Assembly: GCF_003254295.1 (NCBI RefSeq)
Contig: NZ_QKZO01000001.1
Location: 248,001 to 312,000, forward strand
DNA: 64,000 nt
Origin: Rhodobacter capsulatus
GTDB taxonomy: Bacteria; Pseudomonadota; Alphaproteobacteria; Rhodobacterales; Rhodobacteraceae
Direction of reading: 5' to 3'
Part shown: piece by piece, positions 6,548-54,031 of the stretch
Position numbering within the stretch: the first letter of the stretch is position 1
Layout of the letters: every line of letters begins with the position of its first letter
Translations under genes and position numbers: made by a program
Notes under the pieces: model-generated
What the model was told of the DNA's origin: nothing
Databases searched by the model: none
What the model saw: the letters and a program-made list of their open reading frames with translations, nothing else

Positions 6548-7137
6548 GTTTCACCGTTCATATCGTCGATGACGAGGAAAGCCTGCGCGACAGTCTGGGG
6601 TTTCTGTTCGCCTCGCGCGCGATTGCCACGCGGACCTGGGCCTCGGGGGCGGATCTCTTGGCGGAATGGCCGCTTGCCGATTGCGGCTGTCTGATTCTCG
6701 ACGTGCGGATGGAGGGGATGTCGGGGCCGCAGCTGCTGGATGCGCTGCAGGCGCGCCCCGAGGGGCTGGTGCCGCCGGTGATCTTTCTGACCGGCCATGC
6801 CGATGTGCCGCTGGCAGTGCAGTCACTGAAGGCGGGGGCCTTTGACTTCGTCGAAAAACCCTTCAACGACAACCACATCGTCGACATTGCCCTGGCCGCG
6901 ATCGCGGCCCACGCGGGCCGTCTGGCCGAGGTGCAGGCGCGCGAGGCGGTGGCGGCGCGGCAGGCCAGCCTGTCGGCGCGCGAGGCCGAGGTGATGGGGC
7001 TGATGCTGGAAGGGCTGATGAACAAGCAGATCGCCGAACGGCTGGGCATCGCCATGCGGACGGTCGAGGTGCATCGCTCGCGCGTGCTGGCGAAGATGGG
7101 GGCGCGCAACATCGCCGATCTGGCCCGGATGACCTGA
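6544..7137 (+). CDS. dctR: C4-dicarboxylate response regulator DctR (FixJ/NarL type)
   Basis: A 197-residue response regulator. The receiver domain (about 1-120) has acidic residues VDDEE at 8-12, phospho-acceptor D53 in LILDVRMEG and the lysine in FVEKPF. The C-terminal LuxR-type helix-turn-helix is LSAREAEVMGLMLEGLMNKQ onward, ending RTVEVHRSRVLAKMGARN. The start codon overlaps the dctS stop (ATGA), so the pair is translationally coupled. It is expected to activate dctPQM transcription from the palindromes between dctP and dctS. Confidence 0.95.
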   Translation: MSFTVHIVDDEESLRDSLGFLFASRAIATRTWASGADLLAEWPLADCGCLILDVRMEGMSGPQLLDALQARPEGLVPPVIFLTGHADVPLAVQSLKAGAFDFVEKPFNDNHIVDIALAAIAAHAGRLAEVQAREAVAARQASLSAREAEVMGLMLEGLMNKQIAERLGIAMRTVEVHRSRVLAKMGARNIADLARMT

Positions 7138-7138
7138 C

Positions 7139-7165
7139 TTGATTTCGGCAGGGCGTGAACATAAT
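7139..7165 (+). promoter_or_regulatory. Candidate promoter of the radical SAM operon
   Basis: TTGATT (7139-7144) and CATAAT (7160-7165) are separated by 15 bases; shifting the -35 to CTTGAT gives 16. Transcription would start around 7172-7174, on or next to the ATG, so the mRNA would be leaderless. The -10 lies inside the SOS box, as expected for LexA repression. Confidence 0.5.
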
Positions 7166-7171
7166 GTGAAC
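7157..7171. promoter_or_regulatory. LexA (SOS) box in front of the radical SAM gene
   Basis: GAAC-ATAATGT-GAAC is an exact match to the alphaproteobacterial LexA operator GTTC-N7-GTTC (read on either strand as direct repeats). It ends two bases before the ATG at 7174 and overlaps a CATAAT -10 candidate. Another exact copy precedes mmcB at 54017-54031. Confidence 0.8.
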
Positions 7172-7173
7172 AT

Positions 7174-8403
7174 ATGGTTCAGCGCACCCTGCCCGAGAAA
7201 CTGTCGATTCTGGCCGACGCCGCGAAATATGACGCCTCCTGCGCGTCGTCGGGCGGCGAACGGCGCGGCTCGCGCGATGGCAAGGGGATCGGCTCGACCA
7301 CCGGCGCGGGGATCTGCCACGCCTGGGCGCCCGATGGCCGCTGCATCTCGCTGCTGAAAGTGCTGCTGACGAATTTCTGCATCTACGACTGTGCTTACTG
7401 CATCAACCGGGTCTCCAGCCGGGTCGAACGGGCGCGGTTCAGCGTCGAAGAGGTCGTCAGCCTGACGCTGGAATTCTACCGGCGCAACTATATCGAGGGG
7501 CTGTTTCTGTCCTCGGGCATCATCCGCTCGCCCGACGAGACGATGGCCGAGATGGTCCGCGTAGCCCGCACCCTGCGCGAGCGCGAGCATTTCCGTGGCT
7601 ACATCCATCTGAAAACCATCCCCGATGCCGCGCCCGAACTGATTGCCGAGGCGGGGACATGGGCCGACCGGCTCTCGATCAATGTCGAACTGCCGACCGA
7701 GGCCGCGCTGACGCAGCTGGCGCCGGAGAAATCGGTCAAGACGATCCACGGCGCGATGGCCGAGGTGAAGGCCCGCGGCGAGGCCGCCCGGGATCGCACC
7801 GCGCGCGGCACGCGGGCGCCGCGCTTTGCGCCCGCCGGGCAATCGACGCAGATGATCGTTGGTGCCGATGCCGCGACCGATGGCGAGATCCTGCGCAGAT
7901 CCTCTAGCCTTTACAACAGCTTCGCGCTGCGGCGCGTCTATTACTCGGCGTTTTCGCCGATCCCCGATGCGTCAAGGATGCTGCCCCTGATCCAGCCGCC
8001 GCTGGTGCGTGAACATCGGCTCTATCAGGCCGATTGGCTGATGCGGAACTACGGCTTTGACGCGACCGAGATTGCCCCGCCGACCGGCATGCTCGATCTG
8101 CAGATCGACCCGAAACTGGCCTGGGCGCTGGCGCATCGGGCGCTGTTTCCGGTCGATGTGAACCGCGCTGCGCGCGAGATGCTGTTGCGCATCCCCGGCA
8201 TCGGTCCGCGCAGTGTCGAGCGCATCGTGACGGCGCGGCGTCACCGGACGCTGCGTTACGAAGACCTGCTGGCCATCGGTTGCGTGCTGAAACATGCCGA
8301 GCCCTTCATCACCCTGCCCGGCTGGTCGCCCCGCGCGCTGCCCGATGACGCCAATCTGCGCGCGCGCTTTGCCCCCGCGCCGGAACAGCTGAGCCTCTTT
8401 TGA
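7174..8403 (+). CDS. Putative DNA modification/repair radical SAM protein
   Basis: A 409-residue radical SAM enzyme of the family linked to UdgX/DUF4130 proteins. The [4Fe-4S]-binding motif is CIYDCAYC (C69, C73, C76; CX3CX2C). A second cysteine pair, C48 and C57, precedes it. The C-terminus has a helix-hairpin-helix DNA-binding motif, LLRIPGIGPRSVERIVTARR (about 335-355), consistent with action on DNA. The start ATG at 7174 has no Shine-Dalgarno and lies two bases after a LexA box, suggesting a leaderless, DNA-damage-induced transcript. The stop overlaps the next gene (TGATG). The reaction is not established for the family as far as I know. Confidence 0.9.
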   Translation: MVQRTLPEKLSILADAAKYDASCASSGGERRGSRDGKGIGSTTGAGICHAWAPDGRCISLLKVLLTNFCIYDCAYCINRVSSRVERARFSVEEVVSLTLEFYRRNYIEGLFLSSGIIRSPDETMAEMVRVARTLREREHFRGYIHLKTIPDAAPELIAEAGTWADRLSINVELPTEAALTQLAPEKSVKTIHGAMAEVKARGEAARDRTARGTRAPRFAPAGQSTQMIVGADAATDGEILRRSSSLYNSFALRRVYYSAFSPIPDASRMLPLIQPPLVREHRLYQADWLMRNYGFDATEIAPPTGMLDLQIDPKLAWALAHRALFPVDVNRAAREMLLRIPGIGPRSVERIVTARRHRTLRYEDLLAIGCVLKHAEPFITLPGWSPRALPDDANLRARFAPAPEQLSLF

Positions 8404-9236
8404 TGCAGATCACCCTGCCACGCATCGGCACCGTGGCCGCCTGGCGGCAGCAGGTGCGCCGTCTGGCCGCCGCGGGCATCGATCCGGCAGCGGTGATCTG
8501 GTCGGTGGGCGAAACGGCGCCCGATCTCTTCGCCGCAGCCCCCCCGCGGCCCGCTGCGCCGACGCGGCTCATGCTCTCGCGCGAGGCGGTGGAAGGGATC
8601 GAGATGGCCTTGATGCACAGTGACCCCGAGCGGTTTTCCCGCGCCCATGCGCTGGTGCTGCGGCTCTCGCGCCGGGAGCTGCGCTGGGGGGATCGGTCCG
8701 ACCCGGCCTTGCGGCGGCTTCTCGATCAGCAAAAGGCGGTCGGACGCGAGATCCACAAGATGCATGGTTTCGTGCGCTTTCGCGAGGTGACGCCGCCCGG
8801 GGCGAACCGGCGCGCCTTTGCCGCCTGGTTCGAGCCGGAGCACCCCATTCTGGAGGCCGCCGCGCCGTTCTTTGCCCGCCGGTTTGGCGACATGGACTGG
8901 CTGATCGCAACGCCAACTCTGACAGCCAGCTGTGAAGACGGAGAGATGCGGATCACCGAGACCGAGGCCAGGCAACCACCGCCCGAAGACGCGGCCGAGG
9001 AGCTGTGGCGGGTCTATTTCGCCGCGATCTTCAACCCGGCGCGGCTGATGGTGCGCGCGATGAAATCGCATATGCCGCAGAAATACTGGAAGAACCTGCC
9101 CGAGGCCGATCTGATCCCCGGGCTGATCCGGGCCGCCGAGACCCGGGTGCGGGCGATGCACGACCCCGGCACCGCCCTGCCCGCCACCCTGCCCGGTCCC
9201 CGGCTGCGCCGGAAAGCGCCTGCGGGCAGGAGCTAG
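8403..9236 (+). CDS. DUF4130 protein, partner of the radical SAM enzyme (no UdgX domain)
   Basis: A 277-residue protein matching the TIGR03915/DUF4130 family ('probable DNA metabolism protein'). Conserved stretches are KMHGFVRFREV, AWFEPEHPILEAAAPFFARR, FNPARLMVRAMKSHMPQKYW and KNLPEADLIPGLI. In many bacteria this domain is fused to a C-terminal UdgX uracil-DNA-binding domain. Here the protein stops soon after DUF4130, so it is the stand-alone form. The ATG at 8403 overlaps the radical SAM stop codon (TGATG), so both genes are read from the SOS-controlled promoter. The 3' end overlaps the convergent DUF4105 gene at a shared CTAG. Confidence 0.88.
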   Translation: MQITLPRIGTVAAWRQQVRRLAAAGIDPAAVIWSVGETAPDLFAAAPPRPAAPTRLMLSREAVEGIEMALMHSDPERFSRAHALVLRLSRRELRWGDRSDPALRRLLDQQKAVGREIHKMHGFVRFREVTPPGANRRAFAAWFEPEHPILEAAAPFFARRFGDMDWLIATPTLTASCEDGEMRITETEARQPPPEDAAEELWRVYFAAIFNPARLMVRAMKSHMPQKYWKNLPEADLIPGLIRAAETRVRAMHDPGTALPATLPGPRLRRKAPAGRS

Positions 9237-10213
9237 CGGCCCCGGATCAGATCGGAAAAGGGTTTCGTGCCGTGATGGCGCTGCCCGAGCGGGGTGATCA
9301 GCGCCGCCGCGTCGCGTTCGGCGGCCGGGACCGCCGCGATCAGCCCCAGATCGGTCAGGTAATCGGGCAGACGGCCCGACAGCACCAGACGCCGGTCAAG
9401 CGGCAGATCGGGTTTCAGCCTGCGCGCCAGCTGCCAGACCGCGGTGGTGCAATTCGAGGTCAGCGTATTGTAAAATCTGGGCTCCTGTTCCAGCTCCTGC
9501 GCCAGCGCAAGATAGGACAGGAACATGTCCCGGATCTGCCCGGGCGTCAGATCGACCGGATAAAGCCGCACCTGTTCCTTGCGGTAATTGGTGCGCAGCT
9601 TGACGATGTCATCTTCGGTCGCCGCGATCAGCACCTGTTCGAACTGCCGGAAGAAGCCGCCGATCTCGTTGAACTTTTCGCCCCTCTCGCGGCGGATCTC
9701 GACCGAGAACACCACATGCTGGCCGGTCGAGAAGCCGAAACTGACCAGCAGATGCGCGATATCGGGGCGCGACCAGACCGAGGTGAACATGTCGAGACTG
9801 TCCAGTTTCGACAGGTCATATTCTTGCGAGATCCAGCGCGGTGTCGCCTCGGTCTCCGATGTCCAGTCGAAATCGCGGATGTTCGACAGCGTCACCCGCT
9901 CTCCCTCGATCCGCGCGGTCACGCCCCGGGCGACGTCGATCTCCCAGTCGCGGTCCTGCCGCGGCGTGATCGTGTGATACCAGAGGCCCACCGTGACCGC
10001 GGCCAGCCCGACCAGCGCCAGCGCCAGCCCGCGGTGATCGCCAAACCAGAGCCCAAGCGCAGAGAGCGCCGTCAGACCCAGAAGCGCCAGCGCGATCAGG
10101 CGCACGGGACCGGAGAGCTGCAGCCAGACCGCCGTGACGGCCCAGGCGGTGCCCGCCAGGATCAGCCCGACGACAAGGACATGGCCCAGAACATGCAACA
10201 GACGGATCATCAT
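9233..10213 (-). CDS. DUF4105 (Lnb-like periplasmic domain) membrane protein
   Basis: A 326-residue protein with three N-terminal membrane helices (about residues 5-27, 32-52 and 58-78) followed by a large extracytoplasmic DUF4105 domain. This contains the conserved YNTLTSNCTTAVWQLARR block, whose cysteine is the likely catalytic or structural residue. The family resembles the N-terminal domain of lacto-N-biosidase-type proteins and is often found in envelope-stress loci. The ATG at 10213 follows AAGGAG by four bases; a second ATG at 10210 is also possible. It is the last gene of pspA-yiaA-DUF4105. The stop shares CTAG with the convergent DUF4130 gene. The substrate is unknown. Confidence 0.82.
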   Translation of the reverse strand: MMIRLLHVLGHVLVVGLILAGTAWAVTAVWLQLSGPVRLIALALLGLTALSALGLWFGDHRGLALALVGLAAVTVGLWYHTITPRQDRDWEIDVARGVTARIEGERVTLSNIRDFDWTSETEATPRWISQEYDLSKLDSLDMFTSVWSRPDIAHLLVSFGFSTGQHVVFSVEIRRERGEKFNEIGGFFRQFEQVLIAATEDDIVKLRTNYRKEQVRLYPVDLTPGQIRDMFLSYLALAQELEQEPRFYNTLTSNCTTAVWQLARRLKPDLPLDRRLVLSGRLPDYLTDLGLIAAVPAAERDAAALITPLGQRHHGTKPFSDLIRGR

Positions 10214-10256
10214 GGTTCTCCTTGGGGGATGGGCGGGGTGCCCCCGCCCGGCTCCG

Positions 10257-10538
10257 TTACAGGCTCGTCTTGCCCGAGGCTTCGGCCAAAAGACGCTCGG
10301 TCCGGGCCTCTTCCAGCTTGTTGTAGATCCGGTCCGCTTCCTCCTTGTCACGCAAGGCTTTCGACAGCGCCGCGGTGGTGTAGACAAGCATCAGCGCAGA
10401 CATCGCATAATAGCCCTTGGCGGAAAAGCTCGCTTCCAGCGACCAGATCCCCCCGGCCATCATCACCGCGGCGATGGTGAACATGACATAGGTGAACAGG
10501 TTCCAGGCGTTCGAGACTTTCGGGGCATAGGTGGTCAT
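10257..10538 (-). CDS. YiaA/YiaB-family inner membrane protein
   Basis: A 93-residue membrane protein with two hydrophobic segments (about residues 14-33 and 43-60) in the arrangement of the YiaAB two-helix domain. A charged, helical C-terminal tail (SKALRDKEEADRIYNKLEEA) follows. AAGGAT lies eight bases before the ATG. It is 42 bp downstream of pspA and 43 bp upstream of the DUF4105 gene. YiaA-like proteins recur beside pspA in proteobacteria, suggesting a part in membrane-stress response, but no molecular function can be read from the sequence. Confidence 0.85.
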   Translation of the reverse strand: MTTYAPKVSNAWNLFTYVMFTIAAVMMAGGIWSLEASFSAKGYYAMSALMLVYTTAALSKALRDKEEADRIYNKLEEARTERLLAEASGKTSL

Positions 10539-23581: not shown

Positions 23582-24946
23582 ATGCCCGCCAAAGACCCTG
23601 TCACCGCCGATCTGATCCGCCGTCTGGACGCGACCGACGCGCCGCTGCCGCTTGTACAGGCGCTTGCGCAGGATTTCGCCACCGGGCGGTTTCCCGACCC
23701 GGAACTGGCGTTGAACGGGCTGCGCGCGGCCTTGGCGGCGGCGGCGGAAACCGCCGCTCTGGCCGATGAAAACGAGACCCTGCGCGCGGTGGCGGCGCTG
23801 AATGCCGCCGGGGATCGCGCCGGGGCCGCCGCCCTGCTCGATGGCGCGACGGAAGAGCCCCTGATCTCGGCCGCGGCGCGACAGGACCGGATCTGCAACG
23901 CCCCCGAACAGGCCGCCGCGCGGCAGATTGCGCGGCTCAAGGCCGCCGCCCCCGCGGGGGGCGTGTTCCGGGCCACGGTCGATCTGCTTTATGAAAAACT
24001 TGAGGCCGGGGAAAAGGCGGGCGATCCCTTTGACATGCTTCTGGCGCTGGAACTGGCCAAGGCGCTTTACAAGCGCGCCAAGGGCGGCGAGCTGGGGCAG
24101 GCGCAGACGAGCCTTGGCAATTGCCACCAGATCATCGGCCAGTTCCGCCCCGGGCGCAAACATCTGGACCTTGCGGCCGAGCTGTTCACCGCCGCCGCCA
24201 AGGCCGTGGCGCGGACGAAACAGCCGGAAAACTGGGCCTTTTCGCAGCACAATCTGGGCGGCATCCACGAGCTGATCGGCCTGCGCCACCGTGACGGCGC
24301 GATGCTGAAAAAGGCGATCAAGGCCTATGCGGCGGTGCTCGAGGTGTTCAATTCGCAAGGCTCGCCGGTGGAATGGGCCAACAGCACGGCGGCGCGGGCG
24401 AATGTGCGCGCGGCTTTGGGCCGGATGACGGGCGATGCGGCACTGATCGAGACCGCGCTTTCGGATCTGGATTCCGTGCTCGAAGTGCTGAAACAGGACG
24501 ACCATCCGGCCGAATGGGCCTCGGCGCTGGCGACGCGGGCGCTCGCCCGGCGGCATCTGGCCGAGGTGACGGGCGAGGCCGCGCCCCTGCCCGCGGCGAT
24601 CGCGGAATTCGAGCAGGCCGATGCGGTTCTGGCCGGGCTGGATGCGCCCGCCGAGCGGGCACGGTTGCAGCACAATCTGGGCCTGACGGCGCTGGCCCTG
24701 CCCGGGGGCGCGGGGCTTGAGCGGGCCGAGCAGGCCTTTACGGCAGCACTGGCGCTTGGCCGTCGCGATCACGCCGATTATCGCTGGGCGGAAAGCCTGA
24801 CCGGGCTGGGCGAGGTGGCGCTTTTGCGCGGCGACACCGCGGCCGCAAAGGCGCATCTGACCGAGGCGCAGGCGGTTCTGGCGCTTGATCCGGCCAGCGC
24901 CGCGCTGGAACGCTGCGCGGATCTGCTGGCCGGGATTGCGGGCTAA
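23582..24946 (+). CDS. TPR-repeat protein of unknown function
   Basis: A 454-residue cytoplasmic protein, alanine-rich and helical. Tetratricopeptide-like repeats are visible from about residue 150 to the end, for example ALAKALYKRAKGGELGQAQT, LGNCHQIIGQFRPGRKHLDL, FSQHNLGGIHELIG and LTGLGEVALLRGDTAAAKAH. There is no signal peptide or membrane helix. Such proteins act as protein-interaction scaffolds, but no partner is apparent. It is convergent with ychF, whose stop is two bases after this gene's end. Confidence 0.85.
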   Translation: MPAKDPVTADLIRRLDATDAPLPLVQALAQDFATGRFPDPELALNGLRAALAAAAETAALADENETLRAVAALNAAGDRAGAAALLDGATEEPLISAAARQDRICNAPEQAAARQIARLKAAAPAGGVFRATVDLLYEKLEAGEKAGDPFDMLLALELAKALYKRAKGGELGQAQTSLGNCHQIIGQFRPGRKHLDLAAELFTAAAKAVARTKQPENWAFSQHNLGGIHELIGLRHRDGAMLKKAIKAYAAVLEVFNSQGSPVEWANSTAARANVRAALGRMTGDAALIETALSDLDSVLEVLKQDDHPAEWASALATRALARRHLAEVTGEAAPLPAAIAEFEQADAVLAGLDAPAERARLQHNLGLTALALPGGAGLERAEQAFTAALALGRRDHADYRWAESLTGLGEVALLRGDTAAAKAHLTEAQAVLALDPASAALERCADLLAGIAG

Positions 24947-53340: not shown

Positions 53341-53565
53341 ATGGGCATCAACGACGAAAACGACATGGCCGGCGATCTGCAGATCGGCCCCACCGATCAG
53401 GGGATGGTGCGAATCTTCGTCTCGGGCGAGGGGTTCGAGCTGCCCTTCGATTTTGACCCCGAAGAGGCCGAGGAAATCGCCCGCGAATTGATCGATGCGG
53501 CCGAGATGGCGCGGTCGATCACCGAGGGCGCCGCGAAGGGCGGCAAGCCCCGGGGCAAGCGCTAG
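53341..53565 (+). CDS. DUF6324-type small acidic protein
   Basis: A 74-residue acidic protein (MGINDENDMAGDLQIGPTDQ onward; FDFDPEEAEEIARELIDAAE) ending in a basic KGGKPRGKR tail. It fits the small DUF6324 family as I recall it. GGAGG precedes the ATG at 53341. The stop overlaps that of convergent mmcB at a shared CTAG. Function unknown. Confidence 0.75.
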   Translation: MGINDENDMAGDLQIGPTDQGMVRIFVSGEGFELPFDFDPEEAEEIARELIDAAEMARSITEGAAKGGKPRGKR

Positions 53566-54005
53566 GCCTGAAACGCCAGCCCGGAATCCGCCCGCCCCGC
53601 CAGCCGCAGCGCGGCAGTGCGGGCGAATCCCTGCAGCACCAGCTTGCGCCGCGGCGCGGCCAGCCTCGTCTCGGGCGCCAGGCGCAGGATCTCGGCACCG
53701 AAGCGGTCGGCCAGAATCAGCCCCGTCCCTTCGGGCAGGATCTCGACCGGGAAATCGGTGTCCACCGCCCAGAAAAACCGGTCGGCATAGTCCAGATAGC
53801 CCTGCCATTTCCGGTCCGAGGTAAAATCGGCGCGCGAGGACTTGCACTCGACCACCCAGATTTCGCCCTTGCGGCCCAGCGCCATCACGTCTACCCGCAG
53901 ACCCGGACGGGGCACGACCTCGGGCAGACAGGCGAAGCCGTGATCCATCAGGCAGCGGCACACGCCGCGCGCCAGAAGCTGACCGGGAGAGAGATCGTTT
54001 GCCAT
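53562..54005 (-). CDS. mmcB: MmcB-family DNA repair protein
   Basis: A 147-residue MmcB protein, a PD-(D/E)xK-like nuclease-fold family. The likely active site is RVDVMALGRKGEIWVVECKS (D...ExK: VDV, VECK). In Caulobacter it is SOS-induced after mitomycin C. Here an exact LexA box lies 12 bp upstream of the ATG at 54005, in agreement. Cytoplasmic. Confidence 0.9.
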   Translation of the reverse strand: MANDLSPGQLLARGVCRCLMDHGFACLPEVVPRPGLRVDVMALGRKGEIWVVECKSSRADFTSDRKWQGYLDYADRFFWAVDTDFPVEILPEGTGLILADRFGAEILRLAPETRLAAPRRKLVLQGFARTAALRLAGRADSGLAFQA

Positions 54006-54016
54006 GCGCAAGCTAT

Positions 54017-54031
54017 GAACGAAGCATGAAC
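54017..54031. promoter_or_regulatory. LexA (SOS) box of mmcB
   Basis: GTTC-ATGCTTC-GTTC on the minus strand, an exact match to the alphaproteobacterial SOS operator, 12 bp upstream of mmcB. Confidence 0.85.

Follow-up and report, generated by a model that had tools for sequence, protein, structure and literature searches.

The radical SAM family TIGR03916, which we take to be equivalent to COG4277, has already been described in print, together with its connections to the SOS response and to uracil glycosylases. SOS control of the COG1573–COG4277 gene pair has been predicted in Bacteroidetes, in a study that also cites such control for Verrucomicrobia and for Alphaproteobacteria, the latter through a paper on Caulobacter (PMC8565304). 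DUF4130 has been described as a predicted mutagenesis-related enzyme that is linked with SplB-like enzymes and uracil glycosylases (PMC3765255). The uracil glycosylase UdgX is characterized by GEQPG and KRRIH-type motifs and by covalent capture of uracil sites, and its physiological role has been called largely unknown (PMC10359453). Furthermore, a radical SAM gene, its family not stated, belongs to the LexA damage regulon of Streptomyces (PMC9380542), and a gene bearing the TIGR03916 family name is raised in desiccated Acinetobacter (PMC13130816). The main text of a Dinoroseobacter study contains neither ‘radical’ nor ‘uracil’ (PMC6473078), and a literature text search pairing UdgX with radical SAM yielded no paper. 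Three aspects of the locus are added here and were not found in the literature examined: a conserved operator–promoter of predicted leaderless type, a form of the system that lacks UdgX in the genus under study, and a set of extra cysteines in the radical SAM protein.

The locus resides in the window, which is the whole 64,000-nucleotide stretch of DNA that was analysed, and comprises two overlapping genes.

7174 to 8403, forward strand: radical SAM gene, 409 amino acids, TIGR03916 (rSAM_link_UDG), 580.6 bits against a cut-off of 343.5
8401 to 8405, forward strand: TGATG stop/start overlap, read directly
8403 to 9236, forward strand: DUF4130/TIGR03915 gene, 277 amino acids, without a UdgX domain, 185.4 bits against a cut-off of 112.25

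We propose, with a probability of roughly 0.7, that these genes form a LexA-repressed, DNA-damage-inducible operon whose radical SAM enzyme and DUF4130 partner act on damaged DNA. The coupling of the two genes by TGATG, proposed when the locus was first described, is present at 8401–8405. A convergent gene on the reverse strand (9236–10387) encodes an Lnb N-terminal periplasmic domain (152.5 bits), and no terminator-like site was found between window positions 6900 and 9500.

The region upstream of the radical SAM gene holds four elements, of which the box is read directly and the others are predicted.

7139 to 7144, forward strand: predicted −35 element, TTGATT, 17 nt before the −10, with TTG recurring at the matching place in relatives
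7157 to 7171, forward strand: LexA box, GAACATAATGTGAAC, an exact GAAC-N7-GAAC with a counterpart in 127 of 131 distinct relatives
7162 to 7167, forward strand: predicted −10 element, TAATGT, lying within the LexA box and 6 nt before the ATG, in the register that on average scores best as a promoter across relatives
7174, forward strand: predicted transcription start on the A of the ATG, giving a leaderless mRNA, as suggested by the spacing between −10 and ATG

Position 7174 is the forced start of the radical SAM gene, because an in-frame TAA within the LexA box (7162–7164) closes the frame upstream and no further ATG, GTG or TTG occurs before the conserved YDASC. Only the dinucleotide AT at 7172–7173 separates the box from this start codon, a gap that leaves no space for a Shine–Dalgarno sequence, and none precedes 7174. 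Direct reading of positions 7157–7174 thus confirms two elements of the original prediction, namely an exact LexA box 2 nt before the ATG and the lack of room for a ribosome-binding site. The −10 element had also been predicted to overlap the box; the overlap holds, but the hexamer named at the time (CATAAT, 7160–7165) is better replaced by TAATGT, which is the best-scoring register in relatives.

A match to the bare motif is worth little. Exact GAAC-N7-GAAC repeats occur 3 times in the window where 1.35 are expected, and 82 times genome-wide compared with 77 for a reversed control pattern. Because both counts are at chance level, bare motif counting was dropped as evidence of SOS control, and positional conservation in relatives was examined instead. 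By our own arithmetic, which assumes equal base frequencies, an exact box of either form lies 0–6 nt before a given ATG with a chance of about 2 in 10,000. At the level of sequence, the position of the box, unlike the bare motif count, exceeds chance.

Elsewhere in the window, a third exact GAAC-N7-GAAC (23702–23716) lies inside a 454-amino-acid open frame (23582–24946) and is probably a chance match. An exact LexA-type repeat at 54017–54031 precedes, by 11 nt, the ATG of a reverse-strand gene for an MmcB-like DNA repair protein (53562–54005; Pfam PF06319, 153.6 bits); this is probably a second SOS gene in the 64-kb window.

The TIGR03916 family is patchily distributed. In the genus, 8 of 18 genomes have a match and 7 of these score over the cut-off; the corresponding figures are 27 of 149 and 26 for the family, 41 of 385 and 25 for the class, and 99 of 398 and 84 for the phylum. 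Among the 26 over-cut-off family loci, 25 carry an exact box of the GAAC or GTTC form close to the start. For a broader comparison, the family, genus and class loci were combined with 80 named loci; the latter are the best-scoring 80 of 595, so the resulting counts favour close relatives. These 140 loci were reduced to 131 distinct ones by removing two that could not be anchored (L092 and L119), four that are broken or in pieces (L058, L059, L067 and L068) and three exact duplicates. Five weak matches (L060 and L093–L096) and the later-fetched loci L237–L279 stand outside the 140.

A family-wide scan for SOS boxes, which had been suggested as a check alongside the original prediction, found an exact box upstream of the radical SAM gene in 127 of the 131 distinct relatives. 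The gap between box and start is 0–6 nt in 93 of the 131 when the candidate start closest to the box is used (the count is 84 if the nearest candidate start is chosen and 89 if the furthest), and 50 of these 93 share the window's gap of exactly 2 nt. The box lies 7–82 nt upstream in 34 loci, which indicates that direct overlap of operator and −10 is not universal. Clustering at 60% upstream identity retains the box in 116 of 120 cases, with a gap of 0–6 nt in 83, and the DNA further upstream has a mean pairwise identity of 0.26. An exact box is also present in all 22 further class loci that fall outside the main set (L238–L259).

The exceptions among the 131 are two loci with a one-mismatch box (L055 and L129) and two with no box (L071 and L168). 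At L055, the ATG next to the box is out of frame and the gene begins at a later start codon preceded by AGGAG, which looks like a leaderless start that has become leadered. In a separate case from the genus (genome G157; loci L067, L068, L280 and L288), the radical SAM gene is split over two frames and the exact LexA box is kept; this genome has two UdgX-type domains over the cut-off.

Known SOS genes provide a reference for these distances. In the window genome, lexA has two boxes just upstream and recA has a box 84 nt upstream, and thus the marks by which a LexA regulon is recognized in Alphaproteobacteria, a GAAC/GTTC-N7 repeat at the promoter together with boxed lexA and recA in the same genome, are found here. 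Across the same genomes as the relatives, 27 of 30 recA loci were scored: 25 have the box 68–124 nt upstream of the start and 2 lack one; taking the next in-frame upstream ATG as the start instead shortens the distance to a minimum of about 49 nt. For lexA, 22 of 30 loci were scored; 18 have the box 16–70 nt upstream of the start, and the 4 without a box are apparently mis-anchored, judging by their N termini. These boxes are further off, so contact between box and start is not the rule for recA and lexA.

Outside the class, we hand-picked 20 loci from the 29 over-cut-off matches in other classes of the phylum. An exact CTGT-N8-ACAG box is close to the start in 16 of the 20, one locus has a box with one mismatch and 3 have none. 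The presence of a different operator at the same gene in other classes speaks for lasting SOS control. If the GAAC repeat were instead a chance match in an operon that is not SOS-regulated, the chance-level frequency of the bare motif in both window and genome would be as expected, but this explanation is hardly credible given that 127 of 131 relatives, with unrelated DNA further upstream, have the box in one place and that another LexA box occurs at the same gene in other classes. SOS control of the radical SAM/DUF4130 operon is very likely, and this part of the original prediction gains strong support from the boxes in relatives, the CTGT-N8-ACAG boxes of other classes and the recA and lexA controls.

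In some of the other-class loci, such as L261 and L273, visual inspection shows GGAG before the start, and their messages may carry a short leader. At L277, 2 nt separate the CTGT-N8-ACAG box from the start codon, and at L272 and L278 it overlaps the start by one base. The leaderless form may have arisen in other classes too, as these last three loci would illustrate.

When loci are aligned by start codon, TTG recurs near −35 and TA near −12/−11. The mean promoter score peaks with the −10 hexamer ending 6 nt before the ATG, both in the 93 near loci and in the 34 far loci, and this spacing would place +1 on the A of the ATG. For the 29 far loci in which the box ends at least 12 nt before the ATG, and hence off the −10, the scores add up to 169.5 compared with a shuffle mean of 97.8, a sum reached by none of 5,000 shuffles (single-base shuffles of positions −40 to −1, scored with our own weights). 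Moreover, TTG is found at the matching −35 position in 70 of 127 relatives, compared with 3–11 when the anchor is moved by at least 4 nt. The same −10/−35 register with the box located elsewhere indicates that the distance from promoter to start is kept apart from the operator.

The operon could alternatively be SOS-controlled with a short leader that lacks a Shine–Dalgarno sequence, its transcription beginning upstream of or within the box. Leaders without Shine–Dalgarno sites are common in Caulobacter, where 24.6% of start sites have one (PMC4117421), and a strict sigma-70 scan reports no promoter at the window locus, where both hexamers are weak by consensus. Shine–Dalgarno-like 4-mers also occur in 6 of the 29 far loci, but they are present in just 5 of the 93 near loci. 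A leader would, furthermore, permit drift, whereas the −10/−35 elements sit at one preferred distance from the ATG in near and far loci alike, and leaderless mRNAs are frequent in the class, with 375 in Caulobacter and 171 in S. meliloti (PMC4117421). We consider such a leader unlikely.

The window locus itself combines the absence of a Shine–Dalgarno sequence with a predicted −10 about 6 nt before the ATG, the window hexamers being weak ones. A leaderless operon mRNA is likely, and the box position and the −10/−35 register in relatives lend the leaderless start proposed earlier strong comparative support. An SOS operator and a leaderless start would thus be combined in one promoter element of about 40 nt. 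A search of 8 genomes for the box-then-ATG pattern gave 82 sites, compared with 26 for a reversed control. Part of these sites was read for other leaderless SOS genes, a candidate list that we dropped because most of the frames are not evident genes; one frame (L301) resembles imuB by eye.

The radical SAM protein (AlphaFold2 model, pLDDT 83.5) has three regions of interest.

7240 to 7344, forward strand: segment with the extra cysteines C23, C48 and C57 and with H49, invariant in 53 of 53 aligned sequences, mostly with pLDDT below 50
7378 to 7401, forward strand: radical SAM motif CIYDCAYC (C69, C73 and C76), invariant in 53 of 53 aligned sequences
8104 to 8241, forward strand: helix-hairpin-helix (HhH) region, residues 311–356, Pfam HHH_5 and HHH_3 below cut-off

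Both motif and fold place the protein in the radical SAM superfamily, as it has a CX3CX2C motif, matches Pfam PF04055 (33.2 bits against 29.5) and matches HydE by Foldseek (E 1.2e-7). Six cysteines (C23, C48, C57, C69, C73 and C76) as well as H49 and H145 are invariant in the 53 aligned sequences, which are 50–79% identical to the window protein. Alignments A1 (53 rows) and A2 (48 rows) were drawn from 168 and 131 usable proteins, respectively, and thinned by similarity and by hand. The extra N-terminal cysteines C23, C48 and C57 may form a second iron–sulfur cluster, in a region where the model is uncertain (pLDDT below 50 at residues 22–34 and 41–58). Lipoyl synthase and MiaB contain such a second cluster.

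The C-terminal HhH that had been noticed previously is present, though at scores below the Pfam cut-offs (HHH_5, 22.4 bits against 27; HHH_3, 21.7 against 27), and its profile touches ComEA and RuvA chains weakly, with a best E of 0.016. A comparison with the sequences of solved structures returned chains with an HhH, fragments of radical SAM proteins and one dehydrogenase. The 50 structural matches shown are general radical SAM enzymes, including HydE, viperin, MiaB and biotin synthase. These four act on substrates other than DNA. Membership in the spore photoproduct lyase (SPL, SplB) family is not supported, given that only TIGR03916 matched at E 0.001 and that no SPL was among those 50.

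DUF4130 is a constant neighbour, adjoining the radical SAM gene in 176 of 178 loci; the 178 include duplicates, and one of the two loci without it (L091) is cut off by the contig. Its AlphaFold2 model is confident (pLDDT 89.6, pTM 0.80) and has no PDB match at E 0.001 or better and none in a viral structure library, and a sequence search of solved structures gave nothing usable. Repeated weak matches to DHH phosphatases (8a8k, E 0.024, TMq 0.27) were too poor to retain that relation. Antiphage defence and phage families were also dropped as candidates, with no match in PADLOC or PHROGs.

The partner carries a fused UDG domain of the UdgX type in 140 of the 178 loci; in 1 locus the domain is encoded by a separate downstream frame, and in 35 it was not found, two of which (L076 and L274) offer too little DNA to tell. 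The fused partners carry a GE[AQS]PG motif in 100 of 101 cases and a K-x-x-[IYL]-H loop in 87 of 101. One fused example matches TIGR03914, which is named UdgX in NCBIfam, at 310 bits, and also matches UdgX structures (6ail, E 6.1e-47).

In contrast, the 277-amino-acid window partner has no UDG domain, in which the GEQPG motif A and the KRRIH loop of UdgX would lie. The partners in all seven intact genus members, the window included, are 271–282 amino acids long and lack UdgX, and none of 8 tested genomes with short partners has UdgX over the cut-off elsewhere. The one UDG match in the window genome (119 bits) is below the UdgX cut-off and looks like family 4 by eye. Because the pair is kept where UdgX is absent, the core of the system is the radical SAM–DUF4130 pair, and the existence of a fusion in most relatives and a UdgX-less pair in the window's genus offers a clear genetic test of the radical SAM family's reaction and of the physiological role of UdgX. 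The original prediction mentioned neither the UdgX fusion, nor its absence in this genus, nor the three extra cysteines.

A role of the operon in DNA modification or repair by a radical enzyme, as first proposed, would fit the names of the two families, the regulation, the HhH and the fusion to UdgX in relatives, but the HhH scores fall below cut-offs. The substrate during the SOS response could instead be RNA, a free nucleotide or a protein, with another role for the HhH, as might be expected from the general radical SAM enzymes among its structural matches and from the weak HhH scores. However, SOS boxes recur across classes, the partner in relatives carries a fused UdgX domain, which traps uracil in DNA, and the family model is named for DNA repair by context, all of which make a substrate other than DNA improbable. 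DNA is a plausible substrate of the radical SAM enzyme.

The box and its position, the promoter geometry, the gene pair and the absence of UdgX are shown by comparison with relatives; for LexA binding, induction, the transcription start, the DNA substrate and the reaction, we infer the following course. LexA bound at 7157–7171 would cover the −10 and block RNA polymerase until DNA damage releases it, and the leaderless message would then yield the radical SAM enzyme. With a [4Fe-4S] cluster and SAM, this protein would generate a 5′-deoxyadenosyl radical, while its C-terminal HhH would put it on DNA, with a nucleotide that is damaged or miscodes as the target. The DUF4130 protein, its synthesis linked to that of the enzyme by the TGATG overlap, would be the constant partner, contributing substrate recognition or a second step. 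The UdgX domain fused to the partner in most examined relatives would capture uracil or AP sites, and the window's genus would do without it.

More tentatively, the pair might represent a new form of DNA-damage repair, in which an SOS-induced radical enzyme with a second, N-terminal iron–sulfur cluster (C23, C48 and C57) reverses or rewrites a DNA lesion by a chemistry unlike that of spore photoproduct lyase, DUF4130 is its dedicated partner with no detected relative among solved folds, and UdgX is an optional trap for uracil sites. If this more specific proposal is correct, the system would be a physiological setting of UdgX. A damage-type operator at the radical SAM gene ties an enzyme family of uncharacterized reaction to DNA repair and makes that role testable.

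Several known systems resemble the proposed SOS operon in part. Spore photoproduct lyase SplB is, like the window enzyme, a radical SAM enzyme of SOS networks, and DUF4130-associated enzymes have been called SplB-like (PMC3765255); unlike SplB, the window protein has six invariant cysteines and an HhH. UdgX of Mycobacterium smegmatis shares GEQPG and KRRIH-type motifs and a structure match with the C-terminal domain of the relatives' partners, whereas UdgX is absent from the window protein and from its genome. In Mycobacterium tuberculosis, the lexA mRNA is leaderless (PMC3062782), which makes it a leaderless SOS gene like the predicted window operon, but it is another gene in another phylum, and that report, as far as it bears on lexA, describes no class-wide conserved geometry (PMC3062782). 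Closest of all is the TIGR03916/TIGR03915 pair, to which the window proteins correspond in adjacency and in scores far over the cut-offs. The window pair differs from the known COG4277/COG1573 pair in having a partner without the UDG domain and a promoter of predicted leaderless type, with the LexA box placed over the −10.
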